Part shown: positions 15,818-52,099 of the stretch, piece by piece
Layout of the letters: each line of letters starts with the position of its first letter
Numbering within the stretch: the stretch's first letter is position 1
Source of the DNA: Marinifilum sp. D737
GTDB taxonomy: Bacteria; Bacteroidota; Bacteroidia; Bacteroidales; Marinifilaceae
NCBI RefSeq assembly: GCF_026672275.1
Contig: NZ_JANQCD010000016.1
Location: forward strand, 1 to 64,000
DNA length: 64,000 nt
Reading direction: 5' to 3'
Position numbers and translations under genes: made by a program
Notes under the pieces: model-generated
What the model was told of the DNA's origin: nothing
Seen by the model: only the letters and a program-made list of their open reading frames with translations
The model's database searches: none

Positions 15818-16963
15818 TTATTCAACTTTTTCTTCTAACCACACAATCTTAGCTTTAGCAATAAGTTGTTTTCCATATACCAAACTCACTCCAATAACAC
15901 CTCCAAAAAATGTCCATATTACCAAAATCATGGAACGTTTAGGCTTAGATTTATCATATGGAATTACAACAGGTTTTATAATAGTAAAAACCGGTGTATC
16001 TTCCTTAACCTGTATTTTCTGTTTTTCCAACTGTTTGGCCAACTCAGAATAAACTCCATAAACCAAATTATAATCAGCGGTTAACCTTTCCAGTTCTGTT
16101 TGTGCAGTAGCTTTACTAACATTTTTATTCCGATCTAAAAAGCTTGCTAAATTCTTTTGAGCCTTTATCGACTCCATTTTTTTCTCAGCGTACCTTTCTT
16201 CTACAAATGACAGTTGATCATTTGCTTTTTGAATTTTAAAATCTGTAATGGCATCTTGCAATAGTATTTGTGCCTTCTGTACCATTTGAGCAGCTGCCTT
16301 AGCTTCCGGCATCTGTGCGGAGAGATATATGTAGCCATCTTTATCATTTACTTCTAAAGATAATTGCGACAACAAGATCTTGATTAACTTTTTCTCAACA
16401 AATGATATTGACTGCAAACCCTCTTCTGAATTCAATTCAACATTTACATTAGCAGATGTATTTCCTTTGATAGCCCCAATAATTAAACCTGGCAATCCGA
16501 CAGTATAATTCTTTATATAACCAAACAACCCAGGCTTATAAATTTCATTGTAGTATGTTGCAAAGGTTACTTTGCCCTCTTGTCCTTTTATTGTCAAAGG
16601 TGTTTTCATCATTTCCTTTAAAAAGGGCACACTCTCCATTAACTTAGGGTAAAGTGTTGGAGGGATATCTGATCCACCTCCCATAGATCCAAGATTAATT
16701 CCAGCCATTGCAGCTAAACCACCTAAACTTCCTCCCAGCTTTGATCCACCTTCAGCAGATTGCGGCACCATGGTACAGGAAGCGGTGTATTCTTTTTCTG
16801 AGAAGATGGCTACGAATAGGCCCATAAACATGAAGATGACGGTTGTTTTGATGACGGTCTTTCTGCCTTCCCATAGGGTTTTGGCGAGTGCAATTAGGTC
16901 GATTTCGTCTTCGTGCTGAGAACGAATTGCATCGGTTTGGTTTGTGTCTTTTATATTGGTCAT
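15818..16963 (-). CDS. wzz: Wzz-family polysaccharide chain-length determinant (no kinase domain)
   Basis: 381 residues. It has the usual Wzz layout: a cytoplasmic N-terminus, a membrane helix (~36-56), a large periplasmic part including coiled coils (~225-320), a proline-containing KPVVIPYDKSKPKR segment and a second membrane helix (~343-363). The C-terminal tyrosine-kinase domain of Wzc is absent, and no kinase gene is in the locus. A glycine-rich stretch (GGSKLGGSLGGLAAMAGINLG) follows the first helix region. It sets chain length with Wzy and probably contacts the SLBB export protein. The heptamer-rich spacer begins just upstream of its start. Confidence 0.92.
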   Translation of the reverse strand: MTNIKDTNQTDAIRSQHEDEIDLIALAKTLWEGRKTVIKTTVIFMFMGLFVAIFSEKEYTASCTMVPQSAEGGSKLGGSLGGLAAMAGINLGSMGGGSDIPPTLYPKLMESVPFLKEMMKTPLTIKGQEGKVTFATYYNEIYKPGLFGYIKNYTVGLPGLIIGAIKGNTSANVNVELNSEEGLQSISFVEKKLIKILLSQLSLEVNDKDGYIYLSAQMPEAKAAAQMVQKAQILLQDAITDFKIQKANDQLSFVEERYAEKKMESIKAQKNLASFLDRNKNVSKATAQTELERLTADYNLVYGVYSELAKQLEKQKIQVKEDTPVFTIIKPVVIPYDKSKPKRSMILVIWTFFGGVIGVSLVYGKQLIAKAKIVWLEEKVE

Positions 16964-17069
16964 TATATCTTTTTATTTGGTCATTGGTTAACTGGTCACT
17001 TGTCATTGGTTGAATCGTCACTCGTCACTTGGACTATTGACTACTGACCATTGACCAGTGTACCATTGA
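16964..17069. repeat. heptamer-type repeat spacer (left of the four-helix gene)
   Basis: The whole gap is made of degenerate 7-bp units such as TTGGTCA, CTGGTCA and GACTATT. It contains the left copy (16993-17043) of a perfect 51-bp direct repeat whose other copy is at 17495-17545. Confidence 0.85.
16993..17043. repeat. 51-bp direct repeat, left copy
   Basis: Begins TGGTCACTTGTCATTGG and ends GGACTATTGACTA. Base for base identical to 17495-17545. The two copies bracket the 118-residue four-helix-bundle gene. Confidence 0.95.
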
Positions 17070-17426
17070 CTATCTTTTTCCAATTGATCGAATGTATGCA
17101 TTTAGCATTTTTGCTATCCGGATACTTTCTTCTTTCAAATCCTTATAAATGGCTTCATCAATTAAGTCTCTATCATTAGCTTTTCTCAACCAATTTTGAG
17201 TTTCATACAAAGATCCACGAGCGTAAAACAAAAAATTCTTATTTTCCTTATAATGGTATCGTCCGTATCCTTCACTAATATTAGCTGATATTGAATCGGC
17301 CGATCTTACCAATTGCTTTCCTATTGTCGACTTTTCGAAATACTGCCAGGCATCCACCAATTTCCAAATCTTCTCTTCAAAAGAATAGGCCAATTGATAA
17401 ACTTGTAAATCTTTTAAGTCTGACAT
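17070..17426 (-). CDS. four-helix-bundle protein (S23/TIGR02436-type)
   Basis: 118 residues, a complete single-domain four-helix-bundle family member. LKDLQVYQLAYSFEEKIW, QLVRSADSISANISEGYGR and FLFYARGSLYETQNWLRKA are the family's conserved positions. The family was first met as reading frames in 23S rRNA intervening sequences and is widespread in Bacteroidota. Its function is unknown. Here it interrupts the export/chain-length pair (SLBB protein and Wzz) and is bracketed by heptamer arrays with a 51-bp perfect direct repeat. That suggests it arrived, or can leave, as a cassette. It need not have a role in polysaccharide synthesis. Confidence 0.9.
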   Translation of the reverse strand: MSDLKDLQVYQLAYSFEEKIWKLVDAWQYFEKSTIGKQLVRSADSISANISEGYGRYHYKENKNFLFYARGSLYETQNWLRKANDRDLIDEAIYKDLKEESIRIAKMLNAYIRSIGKR

Positions 17427-17442
17427 AACTTTATTCGTTTAA

Positions 17443-17588
17443 TTCGTCACTGGTTGATTGGTCATTGGTCACTGGTCACTGGTTGATTGGTCATTGGTCA
17501 CTTGTCATTGGTTGAATCGTCACTCGTCACTTGGACTATTGACTATTGACTATTGACTACTGACTACTGACTACTGACTACTGACTAT
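17443..17588. repeat. heptamer-type repeat spacer (right of the four-helix gene)
   Basis: Runs of 7-bp units: TGGTCAC/TGGTTGA/TTGGTCA types to about 17515, then GACTATT x3 and GACTACT x4 up to the stop codon region of the export-protein gene. It contains the right copy (17495-17545) of the 51-bp direct repeat. Confidence 0.9.
17495..17545. repeat. 51-bp direct repeat, right copy
   Basis: Identical over all 51 positions to 16993-17043. The centres are 502 bp apart, and the interval contains exactly the four-helix-bundle gene. Confidence 0.95.
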
Positions 17589-17589
17589 T

Positions 17590-20022
17590 TTATCTCGTTG
17601 CCACCGCTATTGCCGTAATCAAACTCGCCAATGTTGATGTGAAGGCCAGCCACTTGCTTGCGTTTGCAGCTTTGTCCACTTCTGGTTTTTCCGGAACGAT
17701 GATTTCACAGCCTGGTTCGATTCTTGGGAAGCGTCTTCCGAATAATCCGCCTTTTGTAGCTGCTGTTGTTCCGTTAGCATAGAGCACATATACCTTTCCT
17801 TTCTTGGCTCTTTGGGCAAAACCACCTGAGCTCATGATGTAATCTTTTGCTTTTTTCTTGTCCGTAAAGGTATGTGCCACCGGATTCAATACCGATCCTG
17901 AAACCATTACCGTTTGCAGTTTGGAAGGTACCATCAACTGATCCCCATCCAAAACTTGCAGATCTTCCACACAACCCGAATTCTTCATAATCTTTGGCAA
18001 ATCAATACCCACAATTTGATACTGTACCTTTTCTACCTCTTCGGCATTCATGGTGGTATCCTGTATGGCAATGGCCAGCTTTGCCTGGTATTCTGCTTCG
18101 CTCAATTCTATTCTTCTGCGCAAAGAGGCTCCTTTCACATAGGCTTCAGGGGTCAAACCTCCTGCCCTGCGAATGACATCAGATATTTTTTCATCCTTGC
18201 GGGTGATTCCATACTCTCCGGCATACTTTACTTCCCCCTGCACACTGGCTGTTCCCTGAGGGCGATATCCCGGTGCACGGCGAATGTATACCTTATCGAA
18301 AGCATTCAGAATAAAAGCTTCCCCTTCTGCATCCAGCTTCAGGTTGCGATCCAATCCATATTGATAGGTATGCAATAATGATTTGGTCAATTCTTTGGTT
18401 TCGTTGTAATCCAATACACGGCTTACTTCTACAGAGCTAACCTCTGCATTTTCAAGAAATCCACCTGCCTGGAAAATCAGGTCGGCAATTTTCATGTTCT
18501 CTGCCCAGGCATAGCTTCCCGGGAATTGTACTTCCCCAACAATTTCAACCGTACGCGCTTCGCGCAGATCGAAAATGGAAGAGATCTGAATTCGATCTTC
18601 ACGCTGCAAGAACACATCTGTCTTACCATTCAAGACTTCACGTGGTGAAAATGAGATGGCCTCCAGGCTTAAATCCTTTTGCTTGCGGGTAATTACCCCA
18701 CGCTCCATAAAGGCTTCCTCTTTCAGACCTTCTGCTTTTGCAATCAATTCAGAAAGCTTCATTCCTTCCAACAACTGGTAATCACCAGGACGATAGACTG
18801 CCCCTTCTATGCTGATTCGATTTTCGAAACGCTCTGTAATGGCACCTGCCTGAATGGAATCTCCATTCATCAATGTAATTTCACTGTATTGATCTGCAGT
18901 TACATCTACAAAACTCAAGGTGCGAGAATTGTTGCGATACAAATCCAAAGCATGGGTATAAGCCTTATCGGTAAAACCACCTGCGTAACGCAAAATGTCG
19001 GCTACCAATTCGCCATCTTTGGCCTCAAACAAACCGGTACGCTTGAATTCGCCCGCTACCTTAATGCGATTCACATATGGACGAACCATGATCACATCCT
19101 GATCACGCAATTGCACATTGTTTTGCGTTTTGCCATCAATTAAATATTCATATACATCAACCGAATTGATCACCTTTCCATCACGAATCAAATCGATTAC
19201 ACGGAAAGATCCATTTTCATTTGGTCCTCCTGCCAAATACAGGGCATTGAAAACAGAAGCGGTTGCCGGTAAAGCGTAGGTTCCTGGCAGGTTCACCTCC
19301 CCAATCACATTTACCTTCACTCCTTTTAATGCCCCCAGGCTCACATCGGCAAATGTATTGGGCTGATTCCCTTTCATGCCATTGTAGATGGAAATTAACC
19401 TGGATTTGATTTTTGCACTGGCTTTCGCAAAGCTCATTCCATATACATTGACCGGACCCAAGTCAGGAATCATAATGGCTCCATTTTTCTGAACCACTAA
19501 CATATATGATTGTTGAGATGCACCATAGACTGCAATATTCACTTCATCTCCTATTCCTAAGGCATAAGAATCTGAAACTGGAACATCTACATTGGGTGCA
19601 AAGCTTAAATTCTCTGAATTGAAAAAATGAAAACCAAAAATCTCCTTGTTTTTTTCCGTCGCTTCGAACTCCTTCTTCTCAGACAGCTCCTCTCTTTGCT
19701 CATCTGCAAACATGCTGGTATCTCGCAATGCATTGTTTTGATTGCCACCAAACTGATTCTTCATCTTGTACTCCCGAATGCGCTGAGTCATCTGATCGAT
19801 TTGCATTTGAGAAGCTCCCCGAGCACGAGCCAAAGCCATGGCTTCTTCCAGGCTCATCCCATTCTTCTCCATTTCGGAGATGATTCTTTCAATTTGCTTG
19901 TCGCTTAATGCATTTACATTTACCGTAGCCGGGTTGATATTCGTATTTTGTGCCTCTGCTCCCAGAGCAGCAAAAGCGAAGATCAATCCGAGGAAAAGAG
20001 TTTTTCGAAATAATCGAATCAT
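17590..20022 (-). CDS. Wza-like polysaccharide export protein with six SLBB-type repeats
   Basis: 810 residues, large compared with Wza (~380) but usual for Bacteroidota. A signal peptide ends at about residue 25 (FAALGAEAQ). A helical Gln/Met-rich region follows, then a Poly_export domain (~150-235; SDSYALGIGDEVNIAVYG). Six SLBB-like units can be recognised by their G-x-V...G-x-Y...AGG pattern, starting near VNVIGEVNLPG, IKVAGEFKRTG, ISIEGAVYRPG, VEIVGEVQFPG, ASVQGEVKYAG and VMVSGSVLNPV. A hydrophobic C-terminal helix (KWLAFTSTLASLITAIAVA) would form the outer-membrane part. It exports the polymer across the periplasm and outer membrane. It is the second gene of the locus. Confidence 0.92.
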   Translation of the reverse strand: MIRLFRKTLFLGLIFAFAALGAEAQNTNINPATVNVNALSDKQIERIISEMEKNGMSLEEAMALARARGASQMQIDQMTQRIREYKMKNQFGGNQNNALRDTSMFADEQREELSEKKEFEATEKNKEIFGFHFFNSENLSFAPNVDVPVSDSYALGIGDEVNIAVYGASQQSYMLVVQKNGAIMIPDLGPVNVYGMSFAKASAKIKSRLISIYNGMKGNQPNTFADVSLGALKGVKVNVIGEVNLPGTYALPATASVFNALYLAGGPNENGSFRVIDLIRDGKVINSVDVYEYLIDGKTQNNVQLRDQDVIMVRPYVNRIKVAGEFKRTGLFEAKDGELVADILRYAGGFTDKAYTHALDLYRNNSRTLSFVDVTADQYSEITLMNGDSIQAGAITERFENRISIEGAVYRPGDYQLLEGMKLSELIAKAEGLKEEAFMERGVITRKQKDLSLEAISFSPREVLNGKTDVFLQREDRIQISSIFDLREARTVEIVGEVQFPGSYAWAENMKIADLIFQAGGFLENAEVSSVEVSRVLDYNETKELTKSLLHTYQYGLDRNLKLDAEGEAFILNAFDKVYIRRAPGYRPQGTASVQGEVKYAGEYGITRKDEKISDVIRRAGGLTPEAYVKGASLRRRIELSEAEYQAKLAIAIQDTTMNAEEVEKVQYQIVGIDLPKIMKNSGCVEDLQVLDGDQLMVPSKLQTVMVSGSVLNPVAHTFTDKKKAKDYIMSSGGFAQRAKKGKVYVLYANGTTAATKGGLFGRRFPRIEPGCEIIVPEKPEVDKAANASKWLAFTSTLASLITAIAVATR

Positions 20023-23108: not shown

Positions 23109-23607
23109 TGTCAAACTTGTCATTATTTTTTTTTAATCAAAACTAAAAATCCCTTTACATTGATTTAGCATCCATTCATCATAGCCTAAGCCATTACTTT
23201 TCAGATGATAAATTACACAAACGGTTGCGTATTCATTTTACTTTTTTTTCAATTATTATACCGTATTATTCAAGCATTACCCTACACAGCTTTAAATAAT
23301 TATTTTAACAAACTATATTTGAAGTCTTTAGAAAAGTAGAATGGTAAAATAGTAGAAAAGTGTAATGAGTAATGAGTAATGAGTAATGAGTAATGAGTAA
23401 TGAGTAATGAGTAATGAGTAATGAGTAATGAGTAATGAGTAATGAGTAATGAGTAATGAGTATGCAAAGTTCGGAAATTGAATTTACAAAACGTAATTCG
23501 TAATTGACAATTCGTAATTTTATATCTCGAAGAGTCGGAACCAGCAAGCTGGCTTTATATCCCAGTAGCTTTAGAGTTTGCTTTGGGGATTTGAGATGAG
23601 CAGATAC
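23109..23607. other. non-coding region with a long heptamer array
   Basis: No gene seen between the dehydratase promoter and the rnpB terminator. It holds a short octamer run (~23331-23362, GTAGAA type), the TAATGAG array and short inverted TTCGTAATT/AATTACGAA-type segments around 23490-23520. Confidence 0.7.
23363..23460. repeat. perfect heptamer tandem array (TAATGAG x14)
   Basis: 98 bp made of exactly fourteen TAATGAG units without a mismatch. The lack of decay suggests recent expansion or continuing slippage. Confidence 0.97.
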
Positions 23608-23668: not shown

Positions 23669-23683
23669 TATTCATTGAAAATA

Positions 23684-24042
23684 AAGTGGCAAACCTATAA
23701 GCCGGGTCCTGTCCTCTTCAAAAGAGTTTCTATCATTTATCTTGAACATTTGTTGCCAAATGTCTCTAGCAATCTACCCCCCGACATCGGCCGAGTAAGC
23801 CTACAGCTGACGGTATACTTGATCTTGCAACACATAAGGTACACGGCTACCCATGTCACCACAGGTACCGGTGAGCTCTTACCTCACCTTTTCACCCTTA
23901 CACCAATAAATTGGAGCGGTTATTTTCTGCTCTACTACTAAAGCCTTTCGACTTTCTTCCAGTTAAGAAGTATGTTACTCTGCGTTGCCCGGACTTTCCT
24001 CTCTTTCTTGCGAAACAGCGATAGAACGGTTTGCCTGACGAC
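23684..24042 (-). ncRNA. rnpB: RNase P RNA (bacterial type A)
   Basis: About 359 nt on the minus strand. The 5' conserved core GAGGAAAGTCCGGGC is the complement of 23987-24001. The 3' conserved ACCCGGCTTATAGG is the complement of 23694-23707. The P1 helix is visible as GGCAAACC near the 5' end (24035-24028) pairing with GGTTTGCC near the 3' end (23695-23688). It encodes the catalytic subunit of RNase P, which matures tRNA 5' ends. The exact ends are approximate. An open frame across it is spurious. Confidence 0.95.
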
Positions 24043-24155
24043 AAAATTAATAATTAACAATGAGTAATTAATAATAGTATTAAAATATTTTTCGCACTCC
24101 AATGAATTAATAATTATTATTCATTATTAATTACTAATTATTAATTGTTTATAGT

Positions 24156-27528: not shown

Positions 27529-27579
27529 CCAAATCTCAAATCACAAATCACAAATACCAGGCAACAAGGAGAAAGGAGA

Positions 27580-27684
27580 AAGTAAAATGGTAGAAAAGTA
27601 GAATAGTAGAATAGTAGAATAGTAGAAAAGTAAAATGGTAGAATGGTAGAATAGTAGAATGGTGAAAAAGGTGAAAGGTAAAAG
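27580..27684. repeat. octamer tandem array (AGTAGAAT)
   Basis: 8-bp units AGTAGAAT, AGTAGAAA, AGTAAAAT, GGTAGAAT, GGTGAAAA repeated over about 100 bp. Confidence 0.88.
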
Positions 27685-27757: not shown

Positions 27758-27956
27758 CGAAGCTATTCGCAAAGATCAGCATGATTAAAAAAACAATTTC
27801 AAAGCTGTAATTTTATATTGTTAATTACTCATTATTAATTGTTCATTATTCACACATGTGACGGAAGAAAATACAAAAAGTAAAATAGTAGAATGGTGAA
27901 AAAGGAGAAAGTGTCCCATTCTACCATTCTACTTTTCTACTTTCCAGACCTTTGGA

Positions 27957-30383: not shown

Positions 30384-30502
30384 GAACAGTCCAACAGTCC
30401 AACAGTCCAACAGTCCAACAGTCCAACAGTCCAACAGTCCAACAGTCCAACAGTCGAAAAGTCAAAGAGTCGAAAAGTCAAAGAGTCGAAACGTGGAATA
30501 GT
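30384..30502. repeat. octamer tandem array (CAGTCCAA x8, then AGTCGAAA)
   Basis: Eight perfect CAGTCCAA units at 30387-30450, followed by degenerate AGTCGAAA / AGTCAAAG units to about 30502. It begins right at the T-run of the preceding terminator. Confidence 0.95.
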
Positions 30503-52046: not shown

Positions 52047-52085
52047 ACAAAAGTTCAACAGTCCAACAGTCCAACAGTCGAAGAG
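52047..52085. repeat. octamer run (CAGTCCAA) upstream of truA
   Basis: Units AGTTCAAC, AGTCCAAC, AGTCCAAC, AGTCGAAG, the same unit family as at 30387, overlapping the 5' extension of the truA frame. Confidence 0.8.
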
Positions 52086-52099
52086 TCTTGAAGAGCAAA

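Follow-up and report, generated by a model that had tools for sequence, protein, structure and literature searches.

A probable miniature cassette at a wza-wzz junction of Marinifilum: an IVP gene between cognate short tandem arrays

The wza-wzz junction of Marinifilum sp. D737 probably harbours one copy of a miniature cassette, in which a PF05635 (IVP) gene lies between short tandem arrays that serve as its cognate arms. The best reading of this locus, analysed within a 64,000-nt stretch of contig NZ_JANQCD010000016.1 (the window), is that of a relative of the 23S rRNA intervening sequence (IVS) which stands on its own and is organised like a RAYT/REPIN system.

The initial annotation described a pair of identical 51-bp direct repeats around exactly one gene, situated between an export-protein gene and a Wzz gene, and all three points were confirmed (Table 1): the copies are exact and maximal, no extension of the match being possible, and the sole gene between them encodes an IVP. 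Read in the sense of this gene (minus strand), both flanks consist of TAGTCAR-like units (A) followed by GTGACCA-like units (A'), the latter being approximately the reverse complement of the former. The 51-bp copies are the common segments of two such heptamer-array blocks (A.A'), one on each side of the gene; the bracketing of one gene is thus one copy of a higher-order array unit per side. Matches to a triple-unit pattern lie at 17461-17478 and 17540-17585 in the upstream block and at 17038-17055 in the downstream block. Among the exact direct repeats of at least 25 bp in the 64-kb window, the longer ones are self-overlaps of simple tandem arrays and a tandem array at the window start. A whole-genome search with 101 bp around the first 51-bp copy returned two long matches, both at the focal locus, and four weaker partial matches on two other contigs. 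The A.A' junction motif occurs twice in the wza-wzz intergenic region of the window and 12 times in that of G009, a genome of another genus, which indicates that the A.A' unit multiplies; the 51-bp repeat is interpreted here as a higher-order unit within an array that is expanding.

Table 1. Coordinates of the features at and near the focal locus (positions in the window)
Feature	Position	Strand	Basis and remarks
Wzz/GNVR chain-length gene, conserved downstream neighbour	15818-16963	minus	Domain match; after wza in 12/12 regions compared
Downstream array block A.A'	16978-17070		A ~17032-17070, A' ~16978-17031, gene sense
51-bp direct repeat, copy downstream of IVP gene	16993-17043		Exact, maximal
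IVP / four-helix-bundle gene, 118 aa	17070-17426	minus	PF05635, TIGR02436, AF2 model
IVP gene leader common to G009	17427-17445	minus	GAATTAAACGAAT.AAGTT, sequence comparison
Upstream array block A.A'	17446-17587		A ~17532-17587 (TAGTCAR units), A' ~17446-17531 (GTGACCA units), gene sense
51-bp direct repeat, copy upstream of IVP gene in the gene's own sense	17495-17545		Exact, maximal
Wza-type export gene (SLBB/Poly_export), conserved upstream neighbour	17590-20022	minus	Domain match; relatives in 19/21 genomes searched
RNase P RNA gene	23682-24037	minus	Rfam RF00010

In the same genome (G000), triple-unit arrays of the focal type occur at the focal locus and on contigs C42 and C46, and gene-less arrays of the focal unit type are also found elsewhere. 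G009 has many such triple-unit arrays and G020 has some, both genomes carrying the gene; the arrays occur once in the congener G003 and are absent from the congeners G001 and G002 and from G011. A reversed-letter control of the pattern yields 36 matches in G000, 20 in G001, 6 in G002, 5 in G003 and none in G009, G020 or G011, and exceeds the pattern itself in G000-G003.

Other arrays were noticed in the window. A compact gene-less hairpin at 27880-27943 is built of AGTAGAAT-type units, the unit class of IVP loci L003 and L004, and longer arrays of this unit lie beside it at 27577-27668. A gene-less inverted array of AATTA-type units (24045-24146) directly adjoins the RNase P RNA gene, and GTAATGA is repeated in 14.4 perfect copies at 23362-23462, an expansion that is probably recent. 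Two distant arrays of one octamer (AACAGTCC / CAACAGTC), at 30385-30487 and 52048-52087, have a 27-bp exact match in common. Finally, approx. 900 bp without an evident gene (1290-2200) are rich in several types of 7-8-nt arrays.

The focal protein matches PF05635 (E 1.7e-32, 112.3 bits against a cut-off of 33.8) and TIGR02436 (109 bits, cut-off 24), and the hint in the initial annotation at an insert of 23S rRNA genes was right in kind. PF05635 is the sole domain found at E 0.001, with no nuclease or transposase domain. The AF2 model (pLDDT 89.6) comprises four helices, at residues 2-25, 29-57, 64-85 and 91-114. Its best PDB matches by Foldseek are 2gsc (TM 0.84) and 2rld, followed by Avd (4dwl) and a DGR RNP (8ub7), with TM to the query up to 0.80, a best E of 0.017 and 8-11% identity. 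The crystals of the homologues 2gsc and 2rld hold five chains each, and a reference title cited in PMC10053308 describes 2gsc as five four-helix bundles. The modelled fold and the five-chain homologues are compatible with nucleic-acid binding by an IVP ring, which they support rather than demonstrate.

The arrays before and after all 11 IVP genes of the genome look reverse complementary, which prompted a test of the 200 nt upstream of a gene against the reverse complement of the 200 nt downstream, with dinucleotide shuffles as background and a call at z>3. For the subfamily of the focal gene, the best 80 of 548 relatives were collected in a scan by coding patterns only; they include many congeners (Mucilaginibacter, Dyadobacter, Pedobacter), and four loci near contig ends were dropped. 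Inverted arms were called at 59 of the 76 testable loci, as well as at 8/11 loci of the own genome, 20/29 relatives, 17/29 loci of a second subfamily and 22/28 of a third; for the latter two, 30 loci each were drawn from longer match lists and the own copy was left out, giving 29 each, of which L268 was dropped from the third. By comparison, only 2/47 window genes and 1/18 GNAT genes were called (Fisher p between 1.3e-6 and 2.5e-20 for the IVP sets against controls). Direct repeats pass the same threshold far less often: at 1/11 own loci, 9/29 relatives, and 11/76, 9/29 and 3/28 loci of the three subfamilies, respectively. The best IVP gene per locus was used, which in the 80-locus set differs from the search match only at L136; rows dropped from other sets were GNAT L129 (same gene as L126) and the short L117, and the short PDDEXK_3 loci L099 and L105. 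Moreover, an arm matches its own partner better than the arms of other loci; in four sets with 2000 permutations each, no permutation reached the observed value. Inverted arms could be demonstrated, at the level of sequence, for most of the IVP loci tested.

This rule has its exceptions. Inverted arms fell short of z>3 at 17 of the 76 subfamily loci, and three loci of the own genome, L002, L010 and L011, do not pass the strict test, by eye because their arms overlap the ORF ends. Inverted bracketing is also not unique to IVP, since PDDEXK_3 genes (L080-L109) have inverted flanks at 21 of 28 testable loci and direct ones at 9/28. The focal locus belongs to the inverted-arm class, with the same subfamily and the same unit, but is atypical: both of its flanks are full A.A' blocks, with the inner upstream arm in reverse orientation, and the resulting direct repeats (z 52) outweigh the inverted signal (z 7.1).

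Predicted RNA folds point in the same direction as the arms, but weigh less, because the loci that exceeded every one of their six shuffles were in the minority (17/40 in the focal subfamily, 13/28 in another subfamily, 3/11 in the own genome and 4/18 for GNAT). Predicted arm-to-arm pairs in real and shuffled sequences number 24.9 and 12.2 in the focal subfamily (40 of the 76 testable loci), 27.6 and 11.0 in the other subfamily (28 loci), 29.3 and 19.0 in the own genome, and 9.8 and 10.4 for GNAT genes, the long ones being shortened to 360 nt; real sequences are thus predicted to pair roughly twice as much as shuffled ones in the two subfamilies, and 1.5 times as much in the own genome. The upstream neighbour is codirectional at 11/11 own loci, 26/28 relatives, 67/75, 18/26 and 24/28 loci of the focal, second and third subfamilies and 24/26 PDDEXK_3 loci, compared with 12/18 GNAT and 35/45 window genes; this tendency at IVP loci is suggestive only.

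Of the 21 genomes searched, 19 have a relative of Wza, the own genome among them, and the junction was compared in 12 of the 18 others; the six left out, with 36-38% Wza identity, are the most distant. The junction exists in relatives both with and without the gene. An IVP gene is present in the window, G009 and G020, i.e., at 3 of the 13 junctions compared, and also in Labilibaculum filiforme (L134), whereas the congeners G001-G003 have another small gene or none and, by eye, no trace of the focal array. Other occupants are GIY-YIG genes in G001, G011 and G012, similar genes in G002 and G025 (by eye), PDDEXK_3 genes in G015 and G030, and nucleotidyltransferase-type genes, which G009 and G025 hold as well (the G009 partner falls below the Pfam cut-off for NTase_sub_bind). 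G014 has a gene without any match over cut-off, and no guest gene is evident in G003 and G023. In L. filiforme, similar arrays surround two further, non-IVP guest genes (by eye). The wza-wzz junction is a hotspot for small guest genes.

Two observations concern these regions. Palindromic repeats of the GTCATCCTGA...CAGGATCT type surround the GIY-YIG guests at the junctions of G001, G002 and G011 (L068, L069, L072), which may point to a further pairing of gene and repeat. In the wza region of G003 (L070), wza is split into two frames by a frameshift or an assembly error.

The IVP proteins of the window and of G009 are 94% identical, with dS 0.40, dN 0.03 and dN/dS approx. 0.07, while for the neighbouring genes of the same pair dS is 2.17 (wza) and saturated (wzz). 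The 51-bp unit aligns to the G009 gap with a score of 56, as against at most 36 in 200 shuffles, and the leader of the gene is also common to both. Because dS of the IVP gene is so low next to near-saturated wza and wzz at the same junction in another genus, gene and arrays have probably moved horizontally between the window and G009 lineages, under purifying selection. The apparent youth of the IVP gene relative to its neighbours holds for the G009 pair only; the copies of L. filiforme (dS 1.61) and G020 (saturated) are relatives of greater age, and at such values the comparisons with them are silent on transfer. Together, these data support the view of the focal gene as a patchy, transferable passenger.

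Gain and loss among congeners were followed with a joined-flank search in 11 genomes and 20 sequence stretches, the results being those among the matches listed. Within these matches, G001-G003 have no room for an IVP gene at L001, L002, L006, L007 and L009. At L010, the gene is present in G001 only (a gap of 693 nt with a PF05635 relative), the gap in G002 and G003 being a few bases; at L011, it is present in G002 only, as judged from gap length. By the same measure, L004 is filled in G001-G003, L003 in G002 and L008 in G001, and in G003 an IVP gene adjoins L008 at its right flank only. In the congeners, the two genes that flank L002 directly adjoin each other, and arrays and IVP gene together are an additional unit in the window genome; likewise, arrays and gene are extra together at L010. 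Gene-less hairpins of the cognate unit type were seen by eye at L007 in G001-G003 and at L011 in G001, and may be either remnants or landing sites, while the empty sites of L001, L006 and L009 hold other palindromes or hairpins. No clear target-site duplication was found: L002 offers a 7-bp AT-rich candidate (by eye), and none is obvious at L010. As judged from these comparisons, congeners differ in the presence of both whole array-IVP units and gene-less A.A' hairpins.

The genomic settings of the own copies vary. By eye, L010 (contig C49) lies between mraY and murD, L011 (C42) between thyA and folA, and another copy between serA and DUF1015, with others elsewhere; at L003 (C39), a second wza-like/wzz-like pair encloses an IVP gene that belongs to another subfamily.

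Several alternatives to the cassette with cognate arms have to be weighed. The arrays might be autoregulatory cis-elements only, i.e., operators rather than element ends, to which a vertically inherited IVP binds in its own mRNA as a TRAP-like ring. The arms lie close to the ORF (median 42 nt before the start and 12 nt after the stop, 71 loci each), the comparison with G009 shows strong purifying selection, and the crystal homologues with five chains would suit such a ring. However, vertical inheritance accords poorly with the patchy presence between congeners, the low dS against another genus and the gene-less hairpins at other sites, and this explanation appears rather unlikely on the whole. 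Its binding step, from IVP to array, is one that we infer for the cassette as well.

In the initial annotation, the gene was proposed to be an excisable or insertable cassette defined by its direct repeats, recombination between the 51-bp copies inserting or removing it. The passenger part of this proposal has held up, given the 3/13 junctions and the dS of 0.40 against G009, but its definition by direct repeats has not, and as a mechanism such recombination is improbable. The repeats are perfect and 502 bp apart, the junction motif has reached 12 copies in G009, and gene-less hairpins of the cognate type occupy two other IVP sites in congeners (by eye). Nevertheless, inverted flanks prevail over direct ones (59/76 against 11/76 subfamily loci), and the predicted 502-bp deletion product was seen by eye at none of the junctions of 12 relatives; by eye, the junction of G001-G003 shows no trace of the focal array. 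Arrays and gene are extra together at L002 and L010, and the junction motif was not found in G020 or L. filiforme despite their IVP genes. The initial annotation had also envisaged that the repeat might be a common array segment flanking unrelated genes, and this is partly so, as arrays bracket two other guests in L. filiforme (by eye) and stand without a gene elsewhere in the genome.

In the 80 loci of the focal subfamily, GTCATT occurs in sense upstream of 59, in antisense downstream of 63 and in both positions at 52, with net orientation favouring this arrangement at 68 loci against 2; the opposite orientation is found at 3/80 upstream and 9/80 downstream, the background being 5.8% per 200 nt per orientation. 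Among the 19 loci not labelled Bacteroidota, all of them from metagenome bins that could be mis-binned, the motif is present upstream of 16 and downstream of 19, against 0 and 2 in opposite orientation; labels include Desulfobacterota/Deltaproteobacteria, Ignavibacteria, Chlorobiota, Planctomycetota/Scalindua, Calditrichaceae and Neomarinimicrobiota, and one is unplaced. Over 171 loci, the more alike two proteins are, the more similar are their flanks in the same orientation; the control in opposite orientation shows little change up to 85% identity. For pairs at 45-55% protein identity (n=2072), flank similarity exceeds +8 in 47% and is below -8 in 2.7%. Cross-phylum pairs of the focal subfamily (n=1157) reach 54% against 3% in opposite orientation, pairs of the third subfamily 45% against 4%, and those of the second (n=450), whose unit is loose, 21% against 2%, whereas pairs between the focal and other subfamilies (n=7220) reach 8% against 4%. 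By these comparisons, the unit varies with the IVP subfamily in sequence and orientation, and the records with labels of other phyla are no exception.

Units mostly recur every 7 or 8 nt and next most often every 10 or 11 nt, and a mini-hairpin lies between units at L147, L182 and L201 (by eye). Unit types of other subfamilies are AGTAGAAT and AATTARGA. The idea of one unit per subunit of a five-fold ring was set aside, as arms hold 0-14 units with a mode of 3 and no peak at five, and a search for one k-mer common to all PDDEXK_3 or all GNAT flanks brought none to the fore.

It might still be argued that the arrays are symmetrical products of local slippage, cruciform- or terminator-like, into which any small guest drifts, with no special relation to IVP. 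Arrays do occur throughout the window, other genomes have GIY-YIG, PDDEXK_3 or nucleotidyltransferase genes at the wza-wzz junction, and PDDEXK_3 genes also have inverted flanks. Drift of this kind is hard to reconcile with units that track the IVP subfamily in sequence and orientation, even in other-phylum records, or with bracketing that is mostly missing at GNAT (1/18) and window genes (2/47), and it has little likelihood. An ordinary capsule-operon regulator specific to wza-wzz is highly improbable: IVP genes occupy this junction in four genomes, and a second one in the own genome lies, on the basis of sequence, between another wza/wzz-like pair, but just two of the 80 subfamily loci, L134 and L135, are adjoined by relatives of both the wza and the wzz of the focal operon (L196 has a weak wza-like match), and the genomic context of other own copies, at thyA-folA, mraY-murD, serA-DUF1015 and elsewhere, contradicts it.

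For the miniature cassette, the following course is proposed. Most copies carry inverted arms, with (RGTCATT)n ahead of the gene and (AATGACY)n behind it in the focal subfamily, which in the transcript could form a stem with the gene in the loop. In the window, each side has grown into a full A.A' hairpin unit, the copied unit being the 51-bp direct repeat. The IVP may bind its own repeat unit, most likely as RNA or a single-stranded hairpin, and arms and gene would travel together, perhaps through recombination or a trans-acting enzyme. By analogy with the role of RNase III in the 23S rRNA insert, the stem may isolate the guest message from the host operon, so that insertion between operon genes would be tolerated. 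The RNA step is the least certain part of this mechanism, because fewer than half of the loci outdid each of their six fold shuffles.

A wider generalisation is put forward tentatively. IVP may be the trans-acting partner of intergenic short-tandem-repeat hairpins in Bacteroidota and other phyla, each subfamily recognising its own 7-8-nt unit, with its gene in a hairpin loop and gene-less hairpins as non-autonomous dependants. It would then be a nuclease-free analogue of RAYT/REPIN, and rRNA intervening sequences would be the particular instance in which such an element inserted into a ribosomal RNA helix. The cognate repeat is a directly testable ligand for IVP/S23, as each subfamily predicts a short sequence that its protein should bind, and subfamily swaps provide built-in controls. 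If true, the proposal would offer a source for many 7-8-nt intergenic arrays of the Bacteroidota group, and the cassette view suggests why IVP genes occur between unrelated operon genes. In the literature searched, mostly without subscription journals, no description of IVP genes between cognate inverted arrays was found among the papers listed.

Among known systems, the DGRs contain in Avd a protein with the same fold as IVP by Foldseek, and the resemblance of PF05635 to Avd has been noted (PMC10053308). However, a DGR has a reverse transcriptase, and the identity to Avd is low; the own genome has 0 RVT_1 matches, on which grounds spread driven by reverse transcriptase was also rejected there. 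The TAACTGA arrays of Beggiatoaceae, Cyanobacteria and five Bacteroidetes are short intergenic 7-mers like the IVP arms, with a suspected RNA-level role and horizontal spread as proposed here, but they are mainly direct repeats before start codons, unlike inverted arms (PMC4679880); the terms '23S', 'S23' and 'four helix' are absent from the main text of that paper, and no link to IVP was noticed there. Earlier work has placed IVP genes in cas loci, one CRISPR locus having such a gene between cmr3 and cmr2 (PMC3936711), and in the rRNA inserts of CPR bacteria, in some cases at sites that are mostly occupied by other families (PMC11270868). Both settings fit a passenger element.

The 23S rRNA IVS with an S23/IVP ORF resembles the focal class in its protein family, in an ORF between stem-forming terminal inverted repeats and in a patchy distribution that has been put down to horizontal transfer, as is proposed for the IVP cassettes; the functionality and origin of rRNA inserts remain unclear according to the same work on Coxiella (PMC4990558). 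An ORF between inverted repeats was likewise found at most IVP loci, although direct repeats are the stronger signal at the focal one. The IVS sits in an rRNA gene, whereas the focal IVP gene lies between wza and wzz, and Rfam at gathering scores detects RNase P but no rRNA in the window. Moreover, the cassette arms are arrays of 7-8-nt units that track the protein subfamily, unlike the ends of the IVS. In RAYT/REPIN systems, as in IVP loci, a gene stands beside its own repeat type, gene-less inverted pairs form intergenic hairpins, and protein and repeat seem to co-evolve (PMC3116915), as unit and IVP subfamily seem to do; a repeat class of its own and gene-less inverted pairs elsewhere (by eye) were both found for IVP. 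RAYT is a Y1 (HUH) tyrosine transposase whose partners are palindromic REPs, whereas no catalytic domain is recognised in the four-helix bundle of IVP, and the IVP arms are tandem heptamers. The focal element is therefore not a 23S IVS, by its site, not a DGR, as it has no reverse transcriptase, and not a RAYT/REPIN system, as it has no Y1 transposase; it combines the anatomy of the 23S IVS with the gene-to-repeat relation of RAYT/REPIN.
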